A program made the translations under genes and the position numbers. This document shows positions 40,478 to 60,539 of a stretch of 64,000 nucleotides of DNA, piece by piece. The notes under the pieces were generated by a model. That model was given only the letters and a program-made list of their open reading frames with translations, ran no database searches and had not been told where the DNA came from. This DNA is from Gemmatimonadaceae bacterium (GTDB lineage: Bacteria > Gemmatimonadota > Gemmatimonadetes > Gemmatimonadales > Gemmatimonadaceae). How positions within the stretch are numbered: position 1 is the stretch's first letter; each line of letters starts with the position of its first letter. The stretch covers positions 1 through 64,000 of the forward strand of contig JANYIN010000075.1 in the NCBI GenBank assembly GCA_025362035.1, written 5' to 3'.

Positions 40478-41743
40478 CTAGTGGTCCCCGCGTGTTGCGG
40501 CACCGTCGCGTTCCGCGAGCAGCGTCGCAACGACCCGGTCCTGATCCTCGTAGCGCCCTTCGCCGAAATGGTAGAAGCGCATCCTGCCGGCGGCGTCTGC
40601 ATAATACATAGCCGGCCAGTACTGGTTGTGAAACGCCTTCCAGATCCGGTTCTCGTTGTCGATAACGACGGGGAATTCGATGCCGAGCTTCTTCACCTCG
40701 TTCCGCACGTTCTCAGGTAGTCGTTCGTGGGCGAATTCCGGCGTGTGGACGCCGACCACGACGAATCCGCGATTCTTGTACTTCGCATACAGGTCCTTCA
40801 CGTGCGGCAACGCATTGAGGCAGTTATAACATCCGAAGGTCCAGAATTCCACCAGCACCACTTTCCCGTGAAGGCCCTCCGGCGTCAGCATCGGGGAATT
40901 GATCCACTCCGAGCCGCCATCAAATCCCGGGAGAGTGCCGTCGAGGGACTGCAGGCTGATCCGCGAGCGACGCGCATCCTCGGCTGCGGCGAACGCATCG
41001 AGCGAGAGCCCCACGTCCGGCCCTGCGGCCGAGTGTGGCGCAAGGTGATTCACGAGCACCTCCTCGGCCCGCGCCGTCTGTACCAGGCCGCCCTTTGCGA
41101 AGATAGCGCGGTCCCAGCCAAAGAAGATGGCGACGACGGTCACGATCGTCGCGGCGCCCAGGAACCGGCGAACGACGACATCAGCCGCGCCCGCGCGCTT
41201 GATGCGGGTGAGCAGCCGTGAACCCAGCGACATGACAACAGCGAGTGACATGATGGCTCCCAACGCAAAGGTGAGGAACAATAGCGCGGCGCGTTCGGTG
41301 TCGGCGGAAGCGGCCGCAAGCAGCAGTCCGAGTATCGGGCCCGCACACGGAGCCCACAGCATTCCGATCGCCATCCCGACGACGACGTTGCGAATTGGAG
41401 CGGCAGATCTCTCGTCGCTCCGCGACATGAGGGCGGCGCCGAGGCGAGGGGCGGGTCGGGAAACAAGCTCGGCAGTCCGCGTGGACATCAGGGTCGCCCC
41501 GACGAGACCAAGCAGCGCGAGCGATACATACCGCGTGATCTCATTCGCGATGAGGAGCCAGTGCACGGTGGCCGTGGCAACGAGCGCAGCGACCGTGAAG
41601 GCGATGCCAAGTCCGACGAGCAACGATGCTGTCTCGATCGCGTTGGAGCGCCCGGCGCGCGAAAAGACCAGTGGAATGACGGGCAGGATACACGGGCTCA
41701 GGATCGTGAGGACGCCGCCCAGGAACGCCAGCGTCAGCAGCAT
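40478..41743 (-). CDS. CcdA/DsbD-like membrane reductase fused to a thioredoxin-like domain
   Basis: A 421-residue fusion that carries reducing power across the inner membrane. Residues 1-225 are a CcdA unit with six helices and the two active-site cysteines in LSPCILP and WAPCAGP. After a linker, residues about 285-420 are a TlpA/thioredoxin domain with CxxC as FGCYNCLN, an atypical CYNC also seen in DipZ-type fusions. It would keep periplasmic thiols or cysteine ligands reduced. Its ATG overlaps the anti-sigma stop by 1 nt (TGATG). The track's 59-residue extension is an out-of-family overlap and was dropped. Confidence 0.93.
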   Translation of the reverse strand: MLLTLAFLGGVLTILSPCILPVIPLVFSRAGRSNAIETASLLVGLGIAFTVAALVATATVHWLLIANEITRYVSLALLGLVGATLMSTRTAELVSRPAPRLGAALMSRSDERSAAPIRNVVVGMAIGMLWAPCAGPILGLLLAAASADTERAALLFLTFALGAIMSLAVVMSLGSRLLTRIKRAGAADVVVRRFLGAATIVTVVAIFFGWDRAIFAKGGLVQTARAEEVLVNHLAPHSAAGPDVGLSLDAFAAAEDARRSRISLQSLDGTLPGFDGGSEWINSPMLTPEGLHGKVVLVEFWTFGCYNCLNALPHVKDLYAKYKNRGFVVVGVHTPEFAHERLPENVRNEVKKLGIEFPVVIDNENRIWKAFHNQYWPAMYYADAAGRMRFYHFGEGRYEDQDRVVATLLAERDGAATRGDH

Positions 41744-41994
41744 CACGGCGCGCGCATCCCTTCGGCCTCCAGCGCGGCGACGACGCGGGCGCGCAGCGGC
41801 TCGACGTCCAGCGACACTGCTCCAGAGCGCTGGATCGCTTCGAGAAAGACGCGCGCGAAGTCGAAGTGCGACGTGCAATTCGTACAAGCGTCGAGATGCG
41901 CAACGACTCGAACCTGCCACTCGTCTGGCAGCGCGCCATCGAGGTAGGGCCAGAGTTGCCGGACGATCTCACGGCAGTCGTCAAGTCGTGACAT
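41743..41994 (-). CDS. Zinc-type anti-sigma factor (zf-HC2)
   Basis: An 83-residue cytosolic protein with the ZAS motif HLDACTNC (HxxxCxxC) after an N-terminal helix containing another Cys (DDCREIV). Such anti-sigma factors hold an ECF sigma factor and, in RsrA-like cases, release it when the zinc-bound thiols are oxidised. It has no membrane helix. The gene overlaps the sigma gene by 14 nt and the CcdA-Trx gene by 1 nt, so production is tightly coupled. Redox sensing fits the neighbours but is inferred. Confidence 0.9.
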   Translation of the reverse strand: MSRLDDCREIVRQLWPYLDGALPDEWQVRVVAHLDACTNCTSHFDFARVFLEAIQRSGAVSLDVEPLRARVVAALEAEGMRAP

Positions 41995-42607
41995 GTGGAC
42001 CTCCGAATGGCTGAACGGGAGTCGCGGCCGCCGGACCGCCGGTGACGTGGAATCCCGCATCGATGGCATACCGAATCAGGGACTGCTGCAGCTGGCGGCG
42101 TGCGCGATACAGGCGCGAACGAACGGTGCCGACCGGAATGCCGAGGGCATCCGCGGCCTCCTCGTACTTGCGGTCCTGCACGTCCACCAGTCGAACAACG
42201 TCCCGAAACGGGGGATCGAGGGCATCAATCGCGTTGTTCATCGCCGGCGCGAGATCCAGTCGCGCGAACATGTCCTCCACGCCGTTTTCGCGCGCGAGGG
42301 CGTGAAGCTTGACTGCGGCAAGAGTTTCGAGATCCATGTCGCCTCCCACCGCGGTGGTCCAGCGCTCGCGCGCGCGTTGCGCAAAAAACGTGTTGCGACA
42401 GATCGCCGACAGCCACCGCCGGCAGTCGCTTCCCGGCACGAACGTGCTCCAATGGCGGAACGCCTTGAGAAAAGTGTCCTGTACGAGATCGTCCGCATCG
42501 GACGCGTCGTGCGTGAGCGCCCGCGCAACGCGCGCGATCGCGGGCAGCAACGGCAGCGCTAACCGGGCGAATTCCGCATCGCGCATTTCGTGAGAATCGG
42601 GACCCAT
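41981..42607 (-). CDS. ECF-type RNA polymerase sigma factor
   Basis: A 208-residue group-4 sigma factor. Region 2 is visible in THDASDADDLVQDTFLKAFRHWSTFVPGSDCRRWLSAICRNTFFAQRARER and region 4 in IDALDPPFRDVVRLVDVQDRKYEEAADALGIPVGTVRSRLYRARRQLQQSL. An insert of about 45 residues between regions 2 and 4 is longer than average. The start may instead be the ATG giving MRDAEF. It heads a run with its anti-sigma factor and redox genes, and begins 60 bp after the glucan synthase stop on the same strand. Autoregulation is usual for the class. Confidence 0.93.
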   Translation of the reverse strand: MGPDSHEMRDAEFARLALPLLPAIARVARALTHDASDADDLVQDTFLKAFRHWSTFVPGSDCRRWLSAICRNTFFAQRARERWTTAVGGDMDLETLAAVKLHALARENGVEDMFARLDLAPAMNNAIDALDPPFRDVVRLVDVQDRKYEEAADALGIPVGTVRSRLYRARRQLQQSLIRYAIDAGFHVTGGPAAATPVQPFGGPHVTT

Positions 42608-42666
42608 GCAGCCAATAGCGCACGCGGCGGAAAAGAGTTCCGTCGGCCGGCGGCGGCAATGTGACG

Positions 42667-45600
42667 TCAGCCCATCACGATCTCGACCTGATGTTTGCGA
42701 CCGTCGTCTACCAGCGGTATCTCGCCGTCCGCGCACGCGGAGCCGTCAATCGTCACGCTGCGCACTCCCGTCGACACGCCACTGCTGTTTACCACGGCGA
42801 TGTCGTAGGTAGACCCGCCGTATCGATACTCCACCGAGTATTGCGGCCAGTCTGCTGGAATGCAGGGTTTGATCGTGAGACGATCGGCGCGCTTTATGAA
42901 GCCGAGAATTCCCTCCACGGCAGCACGGTAGCTCCAGCTTGCCGAGCCCGTATACCACGTCCAACCACCTCTGCCCAGATGCCCCGCAGCATCATACACG
43001 TCCGCAGCGATCACGTAAGGCTCGACGTTGTAGCGCTCGGCCTGTTCACGTGTGCACGCGTGCGTAAGGGGGTTGAGCAGATCGTACAGGTGAAACGCGC
43101 GGTCCCCGTGTCCGAGCCCCGCTTCAGCGAGTACCGTCCAAAGCGCGGCGTGTGTGTATTGCGCGCCGTTTTCACGCACGCCAGGCAGATACCCCTTGAT
43201 GTACCCTGGATCGTGAGGTGTCCGATCGAATGGAGGCGTGAGCAGCAGGATCATGCGCTCGTCTTCGCGCACGAGTTTCTCACCCACAGAACGCATGGCG
43301 GCGCGACTGCGATCCGGATCGCCGGCCTCCGACAACACGGACCAGCTCTGCGCGATGGAGTCGATCTGACACTCCGCTTCGCTCGCCGAACCGAGCGGGC
43401 TGCCGTCGTCGAAATACGCGCGTCGATACCACGCTCCGTCCCATGCGTGCCGCTCCACGGCGGCAGTGTACTCGTCGGCACGGCGCCGACAACGGTCCGC
43501 TACGATCGCATCGTCGCGGCGGGCGGCATGGTCAGCGAATCGGTGCAGCGTAGCGATGAGAAACCATGCGAGCCAGACACTCTCGCCGTGTCCGGCGATT
43601 CCGACCCGATTCATGCCATCGTTCCAATCGCCCGATCCAATCAGCGGAAGGCCATGGGCGCCACGCGTGCAGGCGCGGTCGAGCGCCAGGGTGCAGTGCT
43701 CGTACAGCGTGCCGCTGGCGCCGGACAGTTCCGGCTTTTCATAGGCCTCCTGTTCATCCGGCGCCAGTGGACGCATGGTGATGTAGGGGGCGCGTGCGTC
43801 CCAGACGCCGGTATCACCTGTGACCCGCACATAGTGGTCCGCAGTGAACGGAAGCCACACGAGGTCGTCCGAAAAACGGGTGCGGACGCCGCGCTGGCTC
43901 GGCTCGTGCCACCAGTGTTGGACATCTCCCTCGCGGAACTGGTGTCCCGCTGCGCGTATTAGATGCGCGCGGCTCACGCCAGGTTCCGCGTACACGAATG
44001 CCATGCTGTCCTGCAGCTGGTCGCGGAACCCGAACGCGCCGCTCGACTGGTACAGCGCGGATCGCGCCCACATGCGGCAGGACAACGCTTGATAAAGCGA
44101 CCACCGATTCACGAGTGCGTTCATCGCACTCGATGGCGTCGTTACGCGTATGACGGACAGGCGCTCGTTCCACGCGCCGACTGCCGCCGACGACGCCGAT
44201 TCGGCCTGTTCGGGCGTCCCGCAGCGCGCGATGATTGCTCGGACGGCGTCGGCGCCTCGTGAGGCTCCCAACAGCAGGACAACGTGCCGCGTCTCGCCTG
44301 GCTGTAGCACGATCGTGCAGCGCTGCGCGGCACACGGGTCGAAACCAGCCCCACTCACCTCGCGAAGCACGGGGTATGCGAGCGCAGCAGGCGCGGCGAG
44401 ATCCCCGTTGCGCCCGATGAACGCTGCACGATCGCAGGTCGTGCTGGTGATTGGCTCGCTGACCCACGAAAAAGCGAGCTGCGATGCGAAGTCCTCGCCG
44501 AAGCAGTTCTGCGCGAAGAGAGCGCCGCTTTGCGGATCGCGGTGTGTCTGGACCTGAATACGAGTCTGTTCCCGATCCGGGCCGAGCACCCATTCCACGT
44601 AGCTGGTGAGTACGAGACGTCGCGGCTCCGCACCGTCGTTGCTAATCGCGAGTCGCGTGATCTTCACGGGATCATCTGTCGGAACGCTGACCGACAGCGT
44701 CGTCCTAATGCCGGCGCGGCCATGATCGAACGTGCTCACTCCCGGCGCGTGGACAATCCGGTATGGCGCGGATCCTCCGTCGTCGTCGCGCGCCGGATGC
44801 GGACTCGGCGTCGGACTCCACACCAGGCCTGTCTCGGCGTCCTGGATATAGATCGCTTCCCCTGCGGGATCGCTGACGGGATCGTTGAACCATGGCGTGA
44901 GCCGATAGAAATAGCTGTTTTCCACCCACGTGAAGCCCGCGCCGCGCTCGGTGACGCAGAAGCCCGCATTCGGGTTCGCGATCACGTTCGCCCACGGGCC
45001 AGGGGGCACGTGTGCCCCGTCGACGTCGATTCGGTAGTCATCGTTCTCAGTGAGCGCACCAAATCCATTTCCGCCCGCGATCATCCGCGGGATCGTCGCG
45101 CCACGGGCTGGCGTCACGTCGCCGACAGGTGCGCGCGCCGGATCTGCGGCCGGACGTACCGTGGCCGCCACGATCTCGCCCAGTCCGACGCCGTCGCAAA
45201 CGATATGAATGCAAGCAGTCGCCCGCATGAGTGCAACGTCTTCGGCTGGAAGCACGTCGCTCCGCCGGATGAAGACGCCGCCGGCTTGCTCCAACAGCCC
45301 TCCTTCGGTCGACGAGATCACCACGGCGTTGATCTGGTCTTGGAGTTCCTGAATGTACGACGGCTCCTTCGCGTTCAGAATGATCAGGTCCGCTTTCACC
45401 CCTTTGGTGCGCCAATAGTGATGCACGACGAGCAACTGTCGAATGCTTGGAAGACCGACTTCCCCGCGAATGGTCGCGAGGACGATCGGCCAGTCACCGG
45501 AGATGCCGTGAGCCCATAGCGCGGACTGGCCCCGCCGATTTGCCGCTCGCTCATGCTGCGGCGCCCGAAGAGCCTCACGCGGGTAGATGAGCGCGCCGGC

Positions 45601-48600
45601 AAGCTCCTGATACAACGCTGCCGCCGCCGGCGCGACATCCAGATCCCGGAGCTCGACCTGAGCGCCGGTCCACGACAGCGACAGCGCTCGCTCCGCCGCG
45701 CCGAGATCCCGGTTGCGATCGGCAGCCACAAGCGCATCTTCACGGGTGTCCGCGACTATCGTGGTGAATGCAACCGTCGCGGAGCGGCCCGGCTCCAGCC
45801 GCACGCGCACGCGCAACGAGGCGATCGGATCGAGCACCGCGCCGGCCGAATTGGACAACGGGCCTGCAACGTCTAGCGCCGCCGGCGCGCTTACCGTGCG
45901 GCCGCGCCCCAGGAATTTCGCGCGGTCGGTTTCGCACGAAACGGCGGCAACGAGATCCGAACCGGTGGCAACGACGTGGGCGCACCAGGGACGTCCTTCG
46001 TTCGATCCGCGCGGGCGTCGTGAGGCGAGCACGGTACATTGTTCGGGGAGCCATTCGGTCTGCACGAACAAATTCTGGAACGCCGGATGGGCACGATCCG
46101 CATTGGCTGTCGTCAACACGATCTCTCCGTAACTCGTCAGCTCGATGTCCCGTCGGGTTCGCGAGCGGTTCGTGATCGTGACTCGCCGGATTTCCGTCCG
46201 CTCCCGCGGAATGACGACGATTTCCGTGCGCGTGTCGATCAGGCCGTCACTCCGCTCGAACACTGCGCGATCGGCGGTGAAGTTGGCGGAGTAACGCGAC
46301 GGGACGGACCGCGCCGGTTGATGCGCGGCCGACCAGATCTCGCCCGAGGTGAGATCGCGTAGGTAGATCCACTGTCCGGTGGCGTCGCGCACACCGTCGG
46401 CGCGCCACCGGTACACGTCGATCTCGCCGGACCTGCTGTACCCGCCGCCGGCGTTCGTGAGCATGACGCGGTACGACATGCCGCCCAACAGGCAGACTTG
46501 AGGATCCACTGTATCGGGGGAGTCGAACTCTCGAACCACGGCGCGCGCGCGCGGCGGCCGCACGAATGGATCCAGCGCCGAGTCCGCTTGGGGTGACCGC
46601 GTCGTATAGCGTCGCGGCACTCGCTCGTCGAGCAAGAGGGCTGCGGCGCGCACGGCGGGATCGCGCATGAACCGGCGCTGCCAGATCCCCGTCCCGCGCT
46701 CGAGATTCAGCACGTTGTCGAATGCCACGATCGACATTCCCACGTGGTGTGCCATGACGGCGCGTACGATGGCCGGTACGCCCTTCTCGTCCGGGCGTGT
46801 GTAGTCCAGCGCGTCGTAGAACCCATGTGGTCCGAGGGCCCCATGGCGCTCGAGCGCCACGAGGTTGCTCATCGCCTCGTGGGGGTCCACCGCGAGCGCC
46901 AGGGCGCTGGCATATGGCGCGATCACGAGGTCGCTGGCAAGTCCACGCTTCAATGCGAGGTCGGGTACTCCGAATGCGCGATATTGGTAGGTCTCGTGCC
47001 GGTCACGCAGATTGTAGGCCGACTCGGAAATCCCCCACGGAACGCTTCGCGCCCGACCATAGGCGATTTGTCGCCGGACCGCCGCCCGATGCGTCTGATC
47101 GAGCAGCGAAAACGGCCGCGACGGCATGACGAGCACCGGCATGAGGTATTCGAACATGCTGCCGCTCCACGAAACGAGCGCCGTACCGCCTTCGGTGTTC
47201 GTGAGCGAGCGACCAAGGTGGAACCAGTGCTCCGCGGGTACGTCGTCCTTCGCCACGGCGATGAAGCTGGCCAGCCGTGCTTCGGAAGCAAGCAAATCAT
47301 ATGTGCCCGCGTCGAGCTTTCCGCTCCGCGCGTCGTACCCGATCGAGAAGAGGCGCCGCCGCTCGTCGTAGAACAACGTGAAGTCCATGCCCATCGCGAT
47401 GCCCCGTGCGCGGCGACCGACGTCCCGCAGTCGTGCCGCAACCGGAGGCAGGGATTCCGCCAGTTGCTCGCACGCCGCCGAGAGGGCGACGAGATGTCCC
47501 GCGAGGTTTCCCGAGTCCACCGCGGACACATATGGGGGATCGAGCACGCGCAAGTGGTCGAGCTCGTACCAGTTCAGGAGGTGGCCCCGCACCTTCGCCA
47601 TGCCGTCCATGGCCTCCAGCGCTCCTTCGAGTCGTTCGAGCATCGGCTCGGGGGCGATGAACCCCAAGTCGTACGCAGAGACCGTTGCCAGCAACTGCAG
47701 ACCGATGTTCGTCGGCGATGTGCGAGTGGCAACAGCGGGCGCAGGCGTCTCCTGATAGTTGTCGGGAACGAGCCAGTGCGTGCCGGCATTCGCGAAGGTT
47801 TCGATGTACCTCCAATGTGCTCTGGCCATGCGCAAGGCAGTTTCGCGTTCCGACTTGTTGAGTTGGAGGTTGACACGAATAATTGGGTTGCTGAGTCGGT
47901 GCGCGAACTCCGGCGCCCCGATCCACACGAGTGAGAGGCCAGACAGCAGCAGTATCCCGCCCACGCTCGTACCGCCGTGCAGGGAAAGCGTGTGGAACCA
48001 CATGATTCCCAGTAGCGCGAGCGAGACGGCGACCGCCTGCCACATGCGTCGCCACACGATCTCGCGACCGGCCCGGCTGGAGCGCTCAACCTGCGACGCC
48101 GTTTGCCACTCGAGAAGGCGTCGGTGCGAAACGAACACGCGATGGGCGGTGCGCATGATCGCGTCGGCCGCAACGAGCGCTTGGTGCGGCAGCATGACGA
48201 CCGTCACGGCGATCTGCTGAAGCGCCAGCGAGGCATCCCGCAAGAGCGCCGCATAGTACGGCGCCCATGATTCACTTCGTGGAGGGCGCAGCGACGCGAT
48301 CGCCAGAGGAATGCACCAGGGTGCGGCAGTCGCGGCGAGCGTCACGAGCACCCATCGCGGCCCGGAACCAGGAAGCACCGTCCAACCCGCGACGATCCAC
48401 ACCAGCAGCGCGAGCGGCGTGAGACTGCGCCGCATGTTGTCAAGAATCCGCCATCGAGACAACGACGTGAGCGGATTCAATGTGTGCCCCTTGGCGCCGG
48501 GCACGTCATCCTTCAACCACGGAGCGAGTTGCCAGTCTCCGCGAATCCAGCGATGATGGCGGCGGGTCGCAGTGAGATAGCGCGTGGGATAGTCGTCGAA

Positions 48601-50841
48601 CACTTCGATGTCCGTCACGAGCCCCGCGCGCGCGAACGAGCCCTCGATCAGGTCGTGGCTTAGCAATGCATTCTCGGGAAAGCGGCCGGCGATGGCCCGC
48701 TGAAACACCGAGACGTCATAGATGCCCTTGCCGGTAAACGTGCCTTCCGCGAACAGATCCTGATACACGTCCGATACCGCGGTGGTGTACGGATCGACCC
48801 CAGGGTGTCCCGCAAAGATCGACGAGTAGCGGGAGACATTGGCGCTGCCGAGCGACACGCTCACCCGCGGCTGCAGAATGCCGTACCCGCGCACCACGCG
48901 CCCGATCCGTTCGTCGAAGACGGCGCGATTGAGCGGATGCGCGATAGTCCCAATCAGCGCCGCACCGGCGTCGCGCGGCAGCACGGTATCCGAATCGAGG
49001 GTGATGACGTAGCGCACGCCGCGCAGCCAGGTGACCTCCCCCTCCACCTCAGAGAACGCGCCCGCATCACGACCGAGGATGTACTCGTTGAAGTCGACGA
49101 GCTTGCCGCGCTTGCGCTCCCAGCCCATCCACCGCCCTTCCGCCGGGTTCCAGCGCCGCGGGCGATGGAAGTAGTAGAACGGCGCGCCAGTGCCGGCGTC
49201 CTCGGTGACGTACGACGCGTTCAAGGATCGAACGCCTTCCACCGCCGCCATCACTATGTCGGCGTCGCCGGGGGCCCGCTCGTCGTCCGCATCGAGGAAA
49301 TCGCCAAGCAAGGCAAAGCGAATCTCCGGATCGCGGTTGGCGAGGAACTGCACTTCGAGGTGCTCGAGCGCCTCTTCCACGGCTTCGACGCTCCCAAGGA
49401 GAATCGGAACGACCACTGCCGTTCGGTGTTCAGCTGGAACTCCGAGCTTGAACGACATCCGAGCCAGGCGATGCGGCGGCAGCAGCAGCGTCACAAGCTG
49501 GTTGACCAGTGTAACCGCGATGTCGGCTGCAGGCCCGATGGCAAGTAGCAACGCGAGGAGCGCTCCGCGTCCGACTGCGTCATCGAGCGGGTCGAGCAAC
49601 GCGATGAGCGTCCCGGCGAGCGCGAGTCCCAGTGCGCCAAAATAGACGACCGCTGGCCGGGCCATGGCCCCGCGGCGAAGTCGTTCCCCGAAGGGAACTC
49701 GACAGCCCAGCTTCCCTTCGAGGCCCGGGCGGCCTTGGTCCACCAAATAGTGGCCGACGTGCGCCGCGCTCGACGTCGGGCCCATCACGGTTGCCGCGGC
49801 CTCCGCAGCGTCGAGCACAGCCGCCGCAACCTGGTGTTCGGCGAAGTGCGACCGTCGAGACAACTGCTCGACGACGTGGCGGTATCGATCGCGCGTCTCG
49901 AAGGTCATCCCGAGATACACGCCCGCCGGATCGCGGCGAAGCACGGCCTCCGTCGCGCTTGCGGCCTCCACGAAGGAGGGCCAATCGATGTTCCCAACGG
50001 CGCGCAGACTCGCGATGCTGTTCGCCATCACGAGCTGCGTAAGCGCAAGATGCTGCGTAGAGCGCTGGACAGCCTCCTCCACGCTCATGACCTCTTCCGC
50101 GATCCACTGCTCCATCCAGAGCAATGGCGTGAAGTCGACGCGGCGGCTTCGGATCTGTTGCAGGAAGCGCGTGAGGAAGGCGGGCGTAAATAGCGGCGGA
50201 TGGCTGATGAGCTCACGCAGCGCCTTTCCTAGCGCATCCCCCGCGGTGTCGGACGCAAATAGCAGTCGGTCAACCCAGCGGTCCGCTTCCTCCGTGTCCG
50301 CCAGGTCGGCCACGGCGCGAAGCGCCATGTGTCGCACGTTTTCGAGATACCCCATACGCAGCATGGCAGGCATGGCCCACAGTTCGCCCATCGTCAGGGG
50401 CGTGATGCGCTGGTATTGCTGCGTCATCAATTCCAACAACGACGGGTCGAGCCGTCCGTCGGTGTGCGCGATGAGCTCGATCGCGATTTCGTAAACGCGA
50501 GGGAAGCCCGCGAGAGGACCGGTGCCTGCCAGTTTGGGCAGCTCGTGATAGTAGGTGCTCGGCAATGTCGCGCGCACTTCCCGCACTTGCTCCTGCACCA
50601 CATAGAAATTGTCCAGGAGCCATTCGGCGGCTGGGCTCACAGGCTTGCCGTCGCTGGCTGCGCGCGCCAGAACACCGTGGGTGTGCGCAAGGACCCGCTC
50701 GGCAGCGTCCAGACGTCTAAGCAGTGGGCCGCGATCCCGAGGCCTGAGTCCCCGACGGTGCGCGATGATCTTCTGCTTCCGCGCTAGGTGTCGGCTGTGG
50801 CGCGCCAGACGGTCAGAGCCGTACAACTCGCCCAGGATCAT
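42667..50841 (-). CDS. Cyclic beta-1,2-glucan synthase (NdvB/Cgs-type, GT84-GH94)
   Basis: A giant inner-membrane enzyme of about 2,724 residues that polymerises UDP-glucose into beta-1,2-glucan, cyclises it and exports it to the periplasm. The N-terminus contains TPLTMGELWAMPAMLRMG, followed by membrane helices and a GT84 domain with DSDTVLPRDAG and RRHHRWIRGDW, then more helices. Two large glycosidase-like modules and a C-terminal GH94 phosphorylase-like domain follow (GSGDWNDGMNRVG, KGYLPGVRENGAQYTHAA, RGGWTWYTGSASWSYR). The length matches Brucella/Rhizobium NdvB (about 2,800). The ATG at MILGELYG was chosen because earlier ones run into the divergent fdhD. Product identity is inferred from family. 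Confidence 0.93.
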   Translation of the reverse strand: MILGELYGSDRLARHSRHLARKQKIIAHRRGLRPRDRGPLLRRLDAAERVLAHTHGVLARAASDGKPVSPAAEWLLDNFYVVQEQVREVRATLPSTYYHELPKLAGTGPLAGFPRVYEIAIELIAHTDGRLDPSLLELMTQQYQRITPLTMGELWAMPAMLRMGYLENVRHMALRAVADLADTEEADRWVDRLLFASDTAGDALGKALRELISHPPLFTPAFLTRFLQQIRSRRVDFTPLLWMEQWIAEEVMSVEEAVQRSTQHLALTQLVMANSIASLRAVGNIDWPSFVEAASATEAVLRRDPAGVYLGMTFETRDRYRHVVEQLSRRSHFAEHQVAAAVLDAAEAAATVMGPTSSAAHVGHYLVDQGRPGLEGKLGCRVPFGERLRRGAMARPAVVYFGALGLALAGTLIALLDPLDDAVGRGALLALLLAIGPAADIAVTLVNQLVTLLLPPHRLARMSFKLGVPAEHRTAVVVPILLGSVEAVEEALEHLEVQFLANRDPEIRFALLGDFLDADDERAPGDADIVMAAVEGVRSLNASYVTEDAGTGAPFYYFHRPRRWNPAEGRWMGWERKRGKLVDFNEYILGRDAGAFSEVEGEVTWLRGVRYVITLDSDTVLPRDAGAALIGTIAHPLNRAVFDERIGRVVRGYGILQPRVSVSLGSANVSRYSSIFAGHPGVDPYTTAVSDVYQDLFAEGTFTGKGIYDVSVFQRAIAGRFPENALLSHDLIEGSFARAGLVTDIEVFDDYPTRYLTATRRHHRWIRGDWQLAPWLKDDVPGAKGHTLNPLTSLSRWRILDNMRRSLTPLALLVWIVAGWTVLPGSGPRWVLVTLAATAAPWCIPLAIASLRPPRSESWAPYYAALLRDASLALQQIAVTVVMLPHQALVAADAIMRTAHRVFVSHRRLLEWQTASQVERSSRAGREIVWRRMWQAVAVSLALLGIMWFHTLSLHGGTSVGGILLLSGLSLVWIGAPEFAHRLSNPIIRVNLQLNKSERETALRMARAHWRYIETFANAGTHWLVPDNYQETPAPAVATRTSPTNIGLQLLATVSAYDLGFIAPEPMLERLEGALEAMDGMAKVRGHLLNWYELDHLRVLDPPYVSAVDSGNLAGHLVALSAACEQLAESLPPVAARLRDVGRRARGIAMGMDFTLFYDERRRLFSIGYDARSGKLDAGTYDLLASEARLASFIAVAKDDVPAEHWFHLGRSLTNTEGGTALVSWSGSMFEYLMPVLVMPSRPFSLLDQTHRAAVRRQIAYGRARSVPWGISESAYNLRDRHETYQYRAFGVPDLALKRGLASDLVIAPYASALALAVDPHEAMSNLVALERHGALGPHGFYDALDYTRPDEKGVPAIVRAVMAHHVGMSIVAFDNVLNLERGTGIWQRRFMRDPAVRAAALLLDERVPRRYTTRSPQADSALDPFVRPPRARAVVREFDSPDTVDPQVCLLGGMSYRVMLTNAGGGYSRSGEIDVYRWRADGVRDATGQWIYLRDLTSGEIWSAAHQPARSVPSRYSANFTADRAVFERSDGLIDTRTEIVVIPRERTEIRRVTITNRSRTRRDIELTSYGEIVLTTANADRAHPAFQNLFVQTEWLPEQCTVLASRRPRGSNEGRPWCAHVVATGSDLVAAVSCETDRAKFLGRGRTVSAPAALDVAGPLSNSAGAVLDPIASLRVRVRLEPGRSATVAFTTIVADTREDALVAADRNRDLGAAERALSLSWTGAQVELRDLDVAPAAAALYQELAGALIYPREALRAPQHERAANRRGQSALWAHGISGDWPIVLATIRGEVGLPSIRQLLVVHHYWRTKGVKADLIILNAKEPSYIQELQDQINAVVISSTEGGLLEQAGGVFIRRSDVLPAEDVALMRATACIHIVCDGVGLGEIVAATVRPAADPARAPVGDVTPARGATIPRMIAGGNGFGALTENDDYRIDVDGAHVPPGPWANVIANPNAGFCVTERGAGFTWVENSYFYRLTPWFNDPVSDPAGEAIYIQDAETGLVWSPTPSPHPARDDDGGSAPYRIVHAPGVSTFDHGRAGIRTTLSVSVPTDDPVKITRLAISNDGAEPRRLVLTSYVEWVLGPDREQTRIQVQTHRDPQSGALFAQNCFGEDFASQLAFSWVSEPITSTTCDRAAFIGRNGDLAAPAALAYPVLREVSGAGFDPCAAQRCTIVLQPGETRHVVLLLGASRGADAVRAIIARCGTPEQAESASSAAVGAWNERLSVIRVTTPSSAMNALVNRWSLYQALSCRMWARSALYQSSGAFGFRDQLQDSMAFVYAEPGVSRAHLIRAAGHQFREGDVQHWWHEPSQRGVRTRFSDDLVWLPFTADHYVRVTGDTGVWDARAPYITMRPLAPDEQEAYEKPELSGASGTLYEHCTLALDRACTRGAHGLPLIGSGDWNDGMNRVGIAGHGESVWLAWFLIATLHRFADHAARRDDAIVADRCRRRADEYTAAVERHAWDGAWYRRAYFDDGSPLGSASEAECQIDSIAQSWSVLSEAGDPDRSRAAMRSVGEKLVREDERMILLLTPPFDRTPHDPGYIKGYLPGVRENGAQYTHAALWTVLAEAGLGHGDRAFHLYDLLNPLTHACTREQAERYNVEPYVIAADVYDAAGHLGRGGWTWYTGSASWSYRAAVEGILGFIKRADRLTIKPCIPADWPQYSVEYRYGGSTYDIAVVNSSGVSTGVRSVTIDGSACADGEIPLVDDGRKHQVEIVMG

Positions 50842-51046
50842 TTCGCTTGGGGCATTCAACACCCAGGTGGAACTGGGGGATGGCGACGGCGGCCGCCAGC
50901 CTCTCAAGAACTTCACGCTCGTCCCGCTCCAGTTATCTGTCGTTGTGTGACTCGTTGCGCAGCGGTACGATCCCTGAGCAAACGACGCGCGCTCTTCGCT
51001 GGCCGTGGCGTCCTCAACCGTACGCTCTCGCGACGCGCTCTTCTTC

Positions 51047-51859
51047 ATGATGCACGACCTCGGCCACACGACTCCGCTTCTCGCGACTTCAGCGATTCGA
51101 CTGGATCACGGTCGCGTCGCGGAGGTCGATGAGCTGCTCGCCGAGGAGATTCCCATCTCGATGGTCTACAACGGGGTGTCCCACGCCGTTATGATGGCCT
51201 CCCCAGCCGACCTCGAAGACTTCGCCATCGGATTTTCGTTGACCGAAGGGCTCGTTCACGTAGCGTCAGAAATCACTAGCATCGGCATCGTACGTCACCG
51301 CAAAGGGATAGAACTGCAGATGGAAACCTCGGTCGATGTCGCCGCCGGCGCGCGAAGTCGACGATTGTCGGGGCGCACGGGATGCGGACTCTGCGGCATG
51401 GAGGACGTGGAACAGGTACTTCGGGCCTTACCCCGCGTCCAATCGAGTGGGTTCTTTTCCGCGACCCACATTGCGAACGCCATGGCGGCGCTCGCGGGGC
51501 AGCAACCGCTGAACGCCGCGAGTGGTGCCGTGCATGCGGCCGCGTGGGCGGATCGCAACGGCGCCCTAGCGGTGGCACGGGAAGATGTCGGCCGCCACAA
51601 CGCGCTCGACAAGGTCGTCGGCGCCATGGCCCGCTCAGGCAGCGATGCCCGGACCGGCTTCATCGTTCTCACGAGCCGAGGCAGCTTCGAGTTGGTGCAA
51701 AAGGCAGCGATTTTGGGTGTTGCACTTGTCGCTACCGTGTCGGCGCCCACAGCCCTCGCGGTGCGCATGGCGGCAGAGGCCGGCATCACTCTGGCTGGCT
51801 TTGCTCGCGATGGGCGAGTCACGGTTTACACGCACGTCGAACGGGTGCTTGGTTCATGA
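51047..51859 (+). CDS. fdhD: FdhD-type sulfurtransferase (formate dehydrogenase accessory protein)
   Basis: A 270-residue cytosolic protein that transfers sulfur from a cysteine desulfurase to the molybdenum cofactor of formate dehydrogenase. The active-site CxxC is in GRTGCGLCGMEDV; other family stretches are EEIPISMVYNGVSHAVMMASP, EDFAIGFSLTEGLV, SGAVHAAAW, REDVGRHNALDKVVG, TSRGSFELVQKAA and APTALAVRMAAEAGITL. The ATG giving MMHDLG was taken; a GTG 14 codons earlier is possible. No formate dehydrogenase gene is in the window. It diverges from the glucan synthase across 205 bp. Confidence 0.95.
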   Translation: MMHDLGHTTPLLATSAIRLDHGRVAEVDELLAEEIPISMVYNGVSHAVMMASPADLEDFAIGFSLTEGLVHVASEITSIGIVRHRKGIELQMETSVDVAAGARSRRLSGRTGCGLCGMEDVEQVLRALPRVQSSGFFSATHIANAMAALAGQQPLNAASGAVHAAAWADRNGALAVAREDVGRHNALDKVVGAMARSGSDARTGFIVLTSRGSFELVQKAAILGVALVATVSAPTALAVRMAAEAGITLAGFARDGRVTVYTHVERVLGS

Positions 51860-56686: not shown

Positions 56687-57955
56687 CTATCGCCGCGGCT
56701 TGGTCGCGCCAGGTGTCTGGAAGACCATGTTGGGCCCGACATAACCGAACTGCAGCCCGGCGCTCTTCTCCACGCCGTGTATCGCCTGCAGCAACGAGTC
56801 GAGAGACGCGTGCATGGTCACTTTTCGATCCAGCAGTGTGAGATCCTTGACCAGGATGTCAGCGCCGTACCACCGTTTGATCTGTGGCAGGACCTCCTTC
56901 AGGGCTCGCTCATTGACTGCCAACATGCCCGTTGTCCAACCGTCTGCTTCCTCCCGCTCGGCCGGCGTGGCGACGCGCGCTGGCGCATTGGCCATGAGAA
57001 CCGAAGCCCCGCCGGCAGCGAGCATCTGGATCGACTTGCCCTGACGGAGTTCGACCGATCCCTTATCCACGACGATCGTGACGGCGGAATCACTCGGGTA
57101 CGCTCGCACCGTGAATTGCGTGCCCTTCGCGATGATCGCAGCGTCGCGTGCACGGACCTGGAACTCCACCTTCTGACCGGCCGCGACGTCGAACGACCCC
57201 AACCCCTCGAACCGGACTGCGCGCATGTCCGGACCAAAGTTTGAAGGGATCGTCATCTTCGACTCGGGCGCCAGGCGGACCTTCGTGCCATCGTCAAGCG
57301 TCACGTTGCCCATCTGCGCGCTCGCGGAGGTCACCACTCGTGCATCGGGGGCGTTGAGAGCTTTGCTGACCCGCCCCTCGACGGCAAGCTTGTCGGCCCA
57401 GAACGCGCCGGCGATTCCGAGCGCAAGAACGAGGACGCCGAACCCGATGGCTTTCCAGTTCGGTCCACCCTTCGTCATGACGGTAATGTGTTCTGCCGCC
57501 TCATGGCGCGACGCGGCTGCCGCCGCCGCGAGTGCGCCCGGGCTATGCGATTCGCCGTGCAGGGCATGCATGATGGCGTGCCACGATTGTTCAGCCGTCA
57601 CCTCGCCCGTCGCGTGGGCTTCGGTGTGCCCTTCGTGCCCCGCGAACCGGTGGGCCGCGGCTCGGCGACTGAGCGCGCGCGCAGCGGCATGGTGAACATC
57701 GTCCACGAGAAACTCGTTGAGTGCCTCTCGTGTCTGGAAGCGCGTCCGCGCATCCCAAGCCCGAACGAACGATCCCTCAACGCACTTGGCGCCGAGCATA
57801 GCCGCGTCGGCGCCGAGCTTCGATCGTGCTTCGATAATCAGCGAATCATGCTGGGCGAGAAAAACCTCGTGTAGCGTTTCCTCGCTTGCCAGCATCGCGC
57901 CGGGGGGCGGGGGCGTCAGTGCATCGCCATCCGTGCGTGGAACCGTTGTCGACAT
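56687..57955 (-). CDS. FecR-domain protein with a sigma2-like N-terminus and C-terminal STN-like domain
   Basis: A 422-residue inner-membrane protein. Residues about 25-105 (EVFLAQHDSLIIEARSKLGAD, GSFVRAWDARTRF, EALNEFLVDDVHHAAARALSRRAA) follow the spacing of sigma-70 region 2, but the usual DLVQ acids are lost, so it is a decayed or repurposed copy. One membrane helix follows (about 170-190, AIGFGVLVLALGIAGAFWA), then a FecR domain (MGNVTLDDGTKVRLAPESKM, GSFDVAAGQKVEFQVRARDAAIIAKGTQFTVRA) and an STN-like end (LPQIKRWYGADILVKDLTL, MHASLDSLLQAIHGVEKSAGLQ). FecR proteins regulate ECF sigma factors; no separate sigma gene is adjacent. Target unknown. Confidence 0.82.
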   Translation of the reverse strand: MSTTVPRTDGDALTPPPPGAMLASEETLHEVFLAQHDSLIIEARSKLGADAAMLGAKCVEGSFVRAWDARTRFQTREALNEFLVDDVHHAAARALSRRAAAHRFAGHEGHTEAHATGEVTAEQSWHAIMHALHGESHSPGALAAAAAASRHEAAEHITVMTKGGPNWKAIGFGVLVLALGIAGAFWADKLAVEGRVSKALNAPDARVVTSASAQMGNVTLDDGTKVRLAPESKMTIPSNFGPDMRAVRFEGLGSFDVAAGQKVEFQVRARDAAIIAKGTQFTVRAYPSDSAVTIVVDKGSVELRQGKSIQMLAAGGASVLMANAPARVATPAEREEADGWTTGMLAVNERALKEVLPQIKRWYGADILVKDLTLLDRKVTMHASLDSLLQAIHGVEKSAGLQFGYVGPNMVFQTPGATKPRR

Positions 57956-58298
57956 GGCTGCCTCTCAGTCGGAAGTTGGGACGACTGGATCGCGAGCGTC
58001 GGTACCTTGGACCTTCAGTATAACGATTCAAACGATATACGACGAGTCGGCCTTCGCCGCCATGGCGAGCTTGTCGGCTGTGCCTCACGTCATGCCACCA
58101 AATCGCGGGCCCACCAACCTCCCACGAGAGGTGAGTCTACTCTCGAATAGCCCAGTCCGCCGCCGTCAGCAAACGGATGGATAGGTCTCAACTATCACGC
58201 TCCGCGGACGATACTTGATGGCGAGATCTCCATCGCTGGGCAGCCGACCCCTCCCCGCTCGCTTTGGATTCGCCTTCAGCTCATGCGTCAGCCCCATA
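57956..58298. other. 343-bp divergent intergenic region
   Basis: It separates the FecR-like gene (minus) from the first HDOD gene (plus). On the minus strand TATACT at 58022-58017 is a possible -10 for the FecR-like gene, without a convincing -35. The distal 85 bp (58215-58298) are open in the HDOD frame, but the extra N-terminus is not family-like. Nothing else seen. Confidence 0.4.
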
Positions 58299-59339
58299 AT
58301 GCTCCGTAGTCTCTTTAATTCGAGCGCGCGCCGTAAGGCGGACGCCGCACCGATCGCACTTCCCGACGCCGAGGCGAGCATGGCCGCCAGCCCCGATGGG
58401 CCGCGCCCGACGCTCTTCGCGGACAATGAAATCGTCGACCCCGCCGTAGTCCCTGACGGAGAGCACTGGCAGCGCACTCTGTCGTCCAAGCTGTCTGACT
58501 GGCACGCGCGCGCATCCGAGATGCCCAATACACCGGATGCTGGCGTATTCGTGGACGCCCTCGCAGTGCCGTCAGACAGCATAATCCGCCAGCTGCCCTC
58601 GTCGGCGCGCGATGCGATTGCCATGTGCGACGATCTGACGATCTCGCGCGCCCAGCTTGCGACGAGGCTCGGCAAGGACCCGGCACTCGTGCAGGGGCTG
58701 CTGCGCGCGGCGAATAGCGCGGCGTACGGCGCGGGGCGCAAGTCCATCCTGAGCGTCGATGGGGCGATCGAGCGAATCGGACTCCTCGGCGCACGTGCGG
58801 TGGTCATGGCGAACTGCGTCGAAGGCTTGTTGAGCCGTCCCGGCGGACACTTCGACGCGATGGTGAACGATGTGTGGTTGCACATGGTTCGCACAGCGCC
58901 GATTGCGCGTGTCATCGCCCCTGCGTTCGGTGTCGACCGTGAAGAGGCCTTCTCGGTCGCACTACTGCATGACGTGGGCAAACTGGTGGTCTTCGATCAA
59001 CTCTCCAGCCTGCGGACGGCCAACCGCCGTCAGATGGTGGTGCCGCAGGCATGGCTGCGCGCGCTCATTCAGGATGTCCATGAATCACTCGGTGCGATGG
59101 CGGCGCTCCGCTGGAGCATGGGCCCGCGCGCCGCGATCGCCATTGGCGACCATCACCGCGCTGTTGCCGGCGTGGGACATAGTGAATTCGCCGAGGTGAT
59201 CTACTCGGCAGAACGTTTCGACCATGCGCAGAGAAAGGGCGAACCACTCGACATCAATGATCTTTGGAACGACGGCAAGCTCTCGGGTGACAAAGGACGC
59301 ACGGCGGCGGCGCTCGAAGCGCTGACCAACGCAGCGTAG
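58299..59339 (+). CDS. HDOD-domain signalling protein (copy 1 of a tandem pair)
   Basis: A 346-residue cytosolic protein. A variable N-terminal 100 residues precede an HDOD domain (about 105-300): IIRQLPSSARDAIAMCDD, LGKDPALVQGLLRAANSAAYG, SVDGAIERIGLLGARAVVMANCVEGL, and HDVGKLVVFD. HDOD domains are HD-fold modules without proven hydrolase activity, used in signalling and c-di-GMP-linked control. The neighbouring gene encodes a close paralogue in the same order. The start giving MLRSLF was chosen as the first ATG with a sensible N-terminus; the track ORF begins 28 codons earlier. Confidence 0.88.
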   Translation: MLRSLFNSSARRKADAAPIALPDAEASMAASPDGPRPTLFADNEIVDPAVVPDGEHWQRTLSSKLSDWHARASEMPNTPDAGVFVDALAVPSDSIIRQLPSSARDAIAMCDDLTISRAQLATRLGKDPALVQGLLRAANSAAYGAGRKSILSVDGAIERIGLLGARAVVMANCVEGLLSRPGGHFDAMVNDVWLHMVRTAPIARVIAPAFGVDREEAFSVALLHDVGKLVVFDQLSSLRTANRRQMVVPQAWLRALIQDVHESLGAMAALRWSMGPRAAIAIGDHHRAVAGVGHSEFAEVIYSAERFDHAQRKGEPLDINDLWNDGKLSGDKGRTAAALEALTNAA

Positions 59340-59435
59340 TGAAACGGCGACGTTGGCACCGTCAAGTCCGCGCTCCCTTGGACGAGACTAGTAAGCGTAG
59401 TCAGGTGTGCCCCACGCCCTAGGATCGTGACGCCG

Positions 59436-60539
59436 ATGTTCAAGAGACTCCTCAGACGGCTTTTCTCGCGGCGTCCCATCGCATCCACCGACTCGATGGT
59501 CATGCCGCCGAAGCGCGTGTCCGTTTCGATGCCAGTACCGCCGCGAGCGTCTAGCGCGATAAGGCGCAACTCCATTCCGCTGTCGATCGAGTTGTCGGAT
59601 TCGGTTGGCCCTTGCGGCCCAGAAGCCACGCCTGCGGTCGTCGCCCAGGACCTCGACCGGGCGGCATGGCAGGGGCGTCTCTCGGACGATCTCGCCGCTT
59701 GGCGCGCCGCAGCGGAGTCGATGCCAGGAACCCCGGATGCGTCCGCGCTCATCGAGATGCTCGATACGCCGTCAGAGTTCGTCATTCGCCAGCTTCCGTC
59801 CGCCGCGCGCGAAGCACTCTCCCTCTGCGACGATTCCGGTCTCTCCCGTACGCAGCTCGCGGCGCGTCTCGGTCAGGACCCCGCGCTCGTCCAGGCGATG
59901 TTGCGCGCGGCGAATAGTGCGCTGCTCGGAGCGGGCCGCCAACCGGTGCTCCGGCTGGACGGTGCACTTGAACGCATTGGTCTCGTTGCGGGACGATCCG
60001 TGGTGCTCGCCAACTGTGTGGACGGACTTCTGAGCCGCCCCGGCGGGCCATTCGACGCGATGGCCACCGACGTCTGGGAGCACATGATTCGCACCGGCCC
60101 TCTGGCCAAGGTGATCTCCCCGGCATTCAGCATGGATGGCGAAGAGGCGTTCTCCGTGGCGCTCCTGCACGACGTCGGGAAGCTCGTGGTGTTCGATCTG
60201 ATCTCCGGGCTTCGCGTCAAGCGTCGTCGCGCCGTGTCCATTCCCACCCCATGGCTCGCGTCCCTCCTGCAAGCGGTGCATGAACCACTTGGCGCGCTGG
60301 CGGCGTTCCGCTGGAGCATGGGGGCACGCGCCGCAATGGCCATTGGGAACCATCATCGCGACGATCCGGACAGCGCAAACAGTCCACTGTCGGAAATCAT
60401 CTATGCGGCCGAGCGAGCGGATCATCTCACCCGACGGGGGGAACCCCTGGATCTCGACGACGTATGGGCTGCGGGCCGGCTGTCCGGCTCGCCGTTCAGA
60501 GCGGCGAGCGCAATCGGAGCGCACTACCGAGCCGCCTGA
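59436..60539 (+). CDS. HDOD-domain signalling protein (copy 2 of a tandem pair)
   Basis: A 367-residue paralogue of the gene before it (96 bp gap). The HDOD parts align nearly gap-free: LGQDPALVQAMLRAANSALLG, LDGALERIGLVAGRSVVLANCVDGLLSRPGGPFDAM and FSVALLHDVGKLVVFD. The N-terminal 110 residues differ, so the two may receive different inputs or partners. The start is the ATG at MFKRLL, with AGGA 11 nt upstream; the GTG three codons earlier is an alternative. An S9 peptidase gene follows. The role in signalling is inferred from the domain. Confidence 0.88.
   Translation: MFKRLLRRLFSRRPIASTDSMVMPPKRVSVSMPVPPRASSAIRRNSIPLSIELSDSVGPCGPEATPAVVAQDLDRAAWQGRLSDDLAAWRAAAESMPGTPDASALIEMLDTPSEFVIRQLPSAAREALSLCDDSGLSRTQLAARLGQDPALVQAMLRAANSALLGAGRQPVLRLDGALERIGLVAGRSVVLANCVDGLLSRPGGPFDAMATDVWEHMIRTGPLAKVISPAFSMDGEEAFSVALLHDVGKLVVFDLISGLRVKRRRAVSIPTPWLASLLQAVHEPLGALAAFRWSMGARAAMAIGNHHRDDPDSANSPLSEIIYAAERADHLTRRGEPLDLDDVWAAGRLSGSPFRAASAIGAHYRAA

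Follow-up and report, generated by a model that had tools for sequence, protein, structure and literature searches.

The window that we analyzed, a 64,000-nucleotide stretch of DNA from a member of the Gemmatimonadaceae, a family of soil bacteria, encodes a protein in which a domain derived from region 2 of an ECF sigma factor (sigma2) is joined by one membrane helix to the periplasmic part of a FecR-type receptor. Because neither sigma region 4 nor the core-binding hallmark of region 2 was found, we do not class this fusion as an ECF sigma factor or as a member of ECF243; it also lacks two properties of FecR proteins, the N-terminal tail and an adjacent sigma gene. It is best called a FecR-type receptor variant with a sigma2-derived output that apparently does not drive transcription.

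Domain organization and sigma homology

An SD-like site and orthologues in many genera identify the open reading frame as a real gene. The anatomy of the encoded protein, of which we are nearly certain, is given in Table 1. The single transmembrane helix, the FecR domain and the STN-like cell-surface-signaling domain (CSSD) are those of a FecR-type regulator, that is, the architecture and fold of FecR, PupR and FpvR (PupR, 6ovk; BDI_1681, 4m0h); unlike those proteins, however, the fusion has a sigma2-derived domain in place of the N-terminal sigma-binding tail.

Table 1. Coordinates of the fusion gene, its parts and related features (window positions unless a locus is named)
Feature	Position	Strand	Basis or remark
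Fusion gene, 422 aa	56687..57955	-	ORF; sigma2-like domain, juxtamembrane helices, TM, FecR, CSSD/STN-like domain
SD-like GAGAGG	57961-57966	-	5 nt upstream of the fusion gene ATG
Sigma-70 region 2 (ECF) derived domain, residues 21-105	57641..57895	-	Profile, hhalign, ECF HMM, AlphaFold and Foldseek
Region 2.2 helix, residues 57-67 (KCVEGSFVRAW)	57755..57787	-	Hallmark replaced (K57, E60, G61); column counts against 57 ECFs
Juxtamembrane helices, residues 121-161	57473..57595	-	hhalign, alignment, predicted helices 121-133 and 139-161; W125, H133, RHEAAxH
Single transmembrane helix, residues ~169-187	57395..57451	-	Hydrophobic stretch inside continuous predicted helix 166-200
Periplasmic FecR domain, residues 208-302	57050..57334	-	Pfam PF04773, 1.8e-10; Foldseek 4m0h, 6ovk (PupR)
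C-terminal FecR_C/STN-like CSSD, residues 330-413	56717..56968	-	Pfam PF16344, Foldseek
ECF sigma gene, 251-254 aa	41984-42745		Nearest sigma gene to the fusion in the window
Small HxxxCxxC-type (ZAS-like) zinc-type anti-sigma-like ORF	41743-42069		Overlaps the 3' end of the ECF gene
Sigma2-less clade	L174-L178, e.g., L175:4228-5103		Short His-rich N terminus, then TM-FecR-CSSD

Pfam recognizes FecR (PF04773) in all 33 family members and FecR_C (PF16344) in 24 of the 33; in the window protein the FecR_C match (residues 348-403, 1e-4) is sub-cutoff. The periplasmic half resembles BDI_1681 (4m0h/4m0n) in both sequence and fold searches of the PDB, and the signaling domain of PupR (6ovk) in the fold search; with Foldseek, the C-terminal domain matches the PupR CSSD (6ovk, E = 1.5e-14) and the signaling domain of FecA (1zzv, probability 0.98). 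Pfam, AlphaFold and Foldseek agree with a preliminary description of this DNA that had placed a membrane helix, a FecR domain and an STN-like domain after the N-terminal segment.

That segment is not recognized as a sigma2 domain by Pfam in any of the 33 family members, the window protein included, and the sigma similarity of the window sequence alone is weak (NCBIfam SigX5, 3.4e-5, sub-cutoff). We gathered orthologues from whole genomes, aligned them and searched 3,720 ORFs with a family profile of residues 21-105 from 39 homologues. ECF sigmas of the window's own genome were matched down to E = 1.3e-12. The matches at E ≤ 1e-6 were to 25 ECF sigmas, and every match up to E = 1 (39/39) was an ECF sigma. 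The best match was E = 0.61 for the reversed profile and E = 0.037-0.79 for ten column-shuffled profiles; these controls, together with the lack of any non-sigma match, exclude a chance similarity. When the family alignment of residues 21-105 was compared with that of 57 local ECFs using hhalign, the probability was 98% (E = 7.6e-14, 76 columns). In the reverse direction, an ECF HMM built from the window's genome matched family members with E-values as low as 2.6e-11 and the window protein alone at just 9e-4 (39-sequence set). Diverged members are plainly ECF-like at the N terminus, e.g., L050 ('VRKGDEKSFERLFRQHFDALIEEAKANFDDAAAAPKVVEISVLRAWEQRASFESSAALEAFLRKSVHDGALREKGRKAA').

The predicted structure agrees. 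AlphaFold places helices at residues 25-47, 49-68 and 76-105 with pLDDT >90, and in a Foldseek search of the PDB with the N-terminal model, ECF sigma factors, whole or as region 2 alone, account for seven of the top eight matches; the sigma matches include 2map, 4lup (TM 0.73 to the target, rmsd 2.4 Å), 1or7 and 5uxx, and the first-ranked entry belongs to an RNA-guided transcription complex (chain C). The E-values are all above 0.05, which is unsurprising because the domain is helical and has 85 residues. Residues ~21-105 are a true homologue of region 2 of ECF sigmas, with a predicted fold that matches sigmaE region 2. This homology had been claimed in the preliminary description, which pointed to FVRAWDARTRF (residues 63-73), and it is upheld by the family profile, hhalign and the predicted fold; residues 25-105, on which that claim had been made to turn, have both profile and structural likeness to region 2.

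Sigma and FecR features missing from the fusion

Region 2.2 of ECF sigmas has the hallmark D/E-x-x-Q-D/E at positions 57, 60 and 61, where the window protein has K, E and G; by alignment we take these positions to correspond to D403, Q406 and E407 of sigma70, the core-binding hallmark of the region. Position 57 is D/E in 57 of 57 local ECFs, whereas it is R/K/H in 37 of 39 family members and an acid in none (0/39); position 60 is Q in 50/57 ECFs and in 1/39 family members (E in 28/39); position 61 is D/E in 51/57 ECFs and in 2/39 family members. The suspected loss of core-binding residues is confirmed by these counts at all three positions, and the replacements suggest that core binding itself has very probably been lost. 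At position 82, where region 2.3 has W/Y, most family members have F, and at 88-89 R-N has mostly given way to H-H/E. Framework positions A43, A55, W67 and L83 are retained or strengthened, and the basic helix (R93, R97, R98, R103) is retained; this helix could still contact nucleic acid or membrane.

Region 4 is absent. The main matches of the ECF HMM end at position ~170 of 231, that is, before region 4, and hhalign gives residues 100-166 a probability of 0.1% against ECFs, with no sigma4 match; together these exclude a region 4 hidden in residues 106-165. The N-terminal sigma-binding tail of FecR is absent as well: hhalign of residues 21-105 against the N termini of ordinary FecRs gives 0.2%, and the sole match to those N termini is a weak 22-column motif preceding the membrane helix. 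There, the W125 motif resembles the last cytosolic helix of ordinary FecRs (DVDxAWxRV), and a pre-membrane W motif may be common to both groups. In the Fec system, the N-terminal tail of FecR binds region 4 of FecI (PMC9249621); therefore, the fusion lacks both sides of this contact. The idea of a sigma factor joined to its anti-sigma factor stands insofar as both parts occur in one chain; neither is complete, with region 4 and the FecR tail missing.

Next to the membrane, W125, H133 and the motif R-H-x-A-A-x-H (RHEAAxH in the window protein, residues 150-156) are strongly conserved family-wide. The motif is specific to this family, matches no known one and is a possible metal or partner site.

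One-chain proteins of this general kind are known. IutY of P. putida (ECF243) is a one-chain ECF/FecR protein from which cleavage by Prc and RseP frees an active sigma factor (PMC5411451), and, like the fusion, it has a cytosolic part derived from a sigma factor, followed by a single TM helix and a FecR-like periplasmic part (PMC5411451; PMC9249621). With the same order of parts, the fusion might be an active sigma/anti-sigma protein of the IutY kind, that is, cleavage triggered by a signal would free its sigma domain to join RNA polymerase. We consider this very improbable: IutY keeps both sigma2 (residues 8-84) and sigma4 (residues 100-164) (PMC9249621) and is active after cleavage, whereas the fusion lacks sigma4 and has a core-binding hallmark that is replaced, with reversed charge in 37 of the 39 members. 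In addition, IutY adjoins its receptor gene, iutA, whereas the fusion has no conserved neighbor, and in the window no TonB-dependent receptor gene lies beside it.

Sigma and transmembrane anti-sigma parts are also fused in one chain in ECF48, ECF52, ECF53 and ECF36, with anti-sigma parts of the zinc-finger or DUF2275 type (PMC8999054); the fusion differs from these in having no sigma4 and in having FecR/CSSD as the partner. It had been suggested that a one-chain design with no free sigma gene nearby would be unusual; no partner sigma is indeed encoded nearby, but fusion in one chain as such has precedent, including the active IutY (PMC5411451, PMC8999054, PMC9249621). A literature search on FecR in Gemmatimonadota listed no paper that, by its title or abstract, concerns the fusion protein.

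Genome neighborhoods of the fusion and of ordinary FecR genes

An ECF sigma gene is adjacent to the fusion gene in 0 of 16 loci, whereas it is adjacent in 20 of 20 ordinary FecR loci of the same genomes, which were picked by FecR score alone; it is also adjacent in the four loci (L093-L096) that were found through the sigma gene (4/4). The sigma gene nearest to the fusion lies 4.6 kb away in locus L102 and 13.9 kb away in the window, in accord with the earlier remark that no free sigma gene is nearby. We considered the window ECF gene as the partner of the fusion and rejected it: a zinc-type anti-sigma-like ORF of its own lies right beside it; by the look of them, the two genes (41743-42745) are an ordinary sigma/anti-sigma pair. 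A membrane/thioredoxin-like ORF comes next to this pair. A minus-strand ORF of 2,800 aa (42667-51069) looks, by its sequence, like a cyclic beta-glucan synthase/glycosyl hydrolase 94.

In the window, the immediate flanks of the fusion gene encode FAD-dependent dehydrogenase and HDOD proteins. The latter are two HDOD paralogues in tandem (58215-60539), oriented divergently to the fusion gene. Where the HDOD domain of the second begins, there is a weak match to Sigma70_r4_2 (3.9e-4), which probably reflects a chance helix-turn-helix similarity. No neighbors of the fusion are conserved between genera; only a few relatives from the genus of the window again have HDOD and ligase-like genes near it. 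We looked to conserved neighbors for a partner or pathway, and none emerged. The STN domains encoded by the window's own genome are few and sub-threshold (the best is in a 1,027-aa ORF beside an ordinary FecR on contig C132); therefore, they do not point to a dedicated partner in the outer membrane.

Two-subunit sigma factors exist, e.g., RsoA/SigO of B. subtilis. Given this precedent and the strong constraint on the sigma2 domain (see below), the fusion might be half of a split sigma factor, with region 2 provided here and region 4 by a separate protein. We give this very little credence: region 2 of a split sigma would still need its core-binding residues, yet exactly those are lost, and no conserved neighbor encodes a region 4.

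Gemmatimonadota ECFs that are encoded beside fecR (e.g., L094 and L095) are, from the alignments, the likely kind of source of the fusion. The family profiles align with region 2 of these sigmas (E ~1e-11 to 1e-17), and the periplasmic half of the fusion aligns with the fecR that lies downstream of them; unlike the fusion, they are separate genes, with an intact region 2 hallmark, a region 4 and an ordinary FecR N-terminal tail. We propose that an ECF-sigma/fecR operon resembling these gene pairs was fused in frame once; the event would have removed the C-terminal half of the sigma factor and the N-terminal tail of FecR, and one in-frame deletion/fusion would fit.

Constraint, distribution and proposed function

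Seven independent closer pairs, pooled, give sigma2 a dN of 0.237 and an omega of 0.39, as compared with omega values of 0.63 (linker), 0.68 (TM), 0.64 (FecR) and 0.54 (CSSD); we use these values for ranking only because the pairs are few and these GC-rich genomes probably have a compressed dS. Of all domains of the protein, sigma2 is the most tightly constrained, and it is under purifying selection. It had been described as decayed, and a decaying remnant without function would agree with the lack of Pfam recognition (0/33) and with the missing hallmark residues. We find such a remnant very improbable: the domain is conserved family-wide with the lowest omega of all domains, its fold core is kept, and the frames are open across 21 genera. 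Constraint and intact frames exclude a pseudogene.

The family occurs in 71 of 108 Gemmatimonadaceae genomes and in 21 of 29 genera, as a single copy apart from contig breaks (full-length profile, E ≤ 1e-60, genomes at least 90% complete; the count includes a few members without sigma2, and the Gemmatimonadaceae label rests on contig names, i.e., Gemmatimonadaceae/Gemmatimonadetes MAGs). Among 295 genomes sampled from the class, 48 were positive, every one of them within the Gemmatimonadaceae. A contig search with a closer alignment set found 11 loci, all in Gemmatimonadota MAGs, several of them named Gemmatimonadaceae. A tree of the FecR/CSSD part only sets the family apart from 24 ordinary FecRs (SH-aLRT 99), in keeping with a single origin.

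In one Gemmatimonadaceae genus, five proteins are without sigma2 (Table 1); they form one clade inside the family, that is, a single later loss. Because this clade kept the TM helix, FecR and CSSD, its members can do without sigma2, the domain may not be the main output of the protein, and the clade warns of a separate role for the periplasmic half. The sigma2 fold could then be purely structural, serving in dimerization, membrane anchoring or the gating of intramembrane cleavage, while the periplasmic FecR/CSSD would carry the function; conservation of the basic helix and of the juxtamembrane RHEAAxH motif would also fit. We regard this as possible but rather unlikely, since a passive anchor would have no need for the constraint seen on sigma2, which exceeds that on the periplasmic part.

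Taken as a whole, the evidence leads us to favor, if by no means strongly, a FecR-type inner-membrane receptor with a sigma2-derived output that binds protein and does not drive transcription. Its periplasmic FecR/CSSD would sense an envelope signal, as in FecR, PupR and IutY; Prc/RseP-type cleavage may be involved; and the sigma2 domain would bind another protein instead of forming a holoenzyme. Our suggestion that this output is a sigma mimic, which would titrate or present an anti-sigma factor or other sigma2-binding partner, is a tentative one. The preliminary description had offered a sigma mimic or a dimerization element as possible roles, and our observations are all compatible with that idea. 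In the EcfG-NepR-PhyR system, home of the classic sigma mimic PhyR, a sigma-like domain mimics sigma on a regulator without driving transcription, as proposed for the fusion (PMC8999054); PhyR, however, is a cytosolic response regulator, whereas the fusion is a membrane FecR sensor, and neither a REC domain nor PhyR_sigma2 (PF22029) was found in the 33 family members. The complete sequence of events, in which an envelope signal would cause sigma2 to be presented or released, sigma2 would titrate an anti-sigma factor or other sigma2-binder, and another ECF would be activated, would define a new class of transmembrane sigma mimics that we judge unlikely as it stands; if true, it would amount to partner switching at the membrane, with a fused ECF-fecR operon as its starting material.

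Current annotation overlooks the sigma2 domain: because Pfam detects FecR but no sigma domain, such proteins would be misread as ordinary anti-sigma factors, and the misannotated fusions would count as regulators of sigma factors that they lack. The family is a natural experiment in how a two-gene sigma/anti-sigma system can turn into a one-gene, apparently non-transcribing signaling protein: sigma region 2 can stay under selection as the cytoplasmic domain of a receptor after the loss of its RNA polymerase contacts and of region 4, which suggests that part of a transcription factor has been reused as a non-transcribing binding module.
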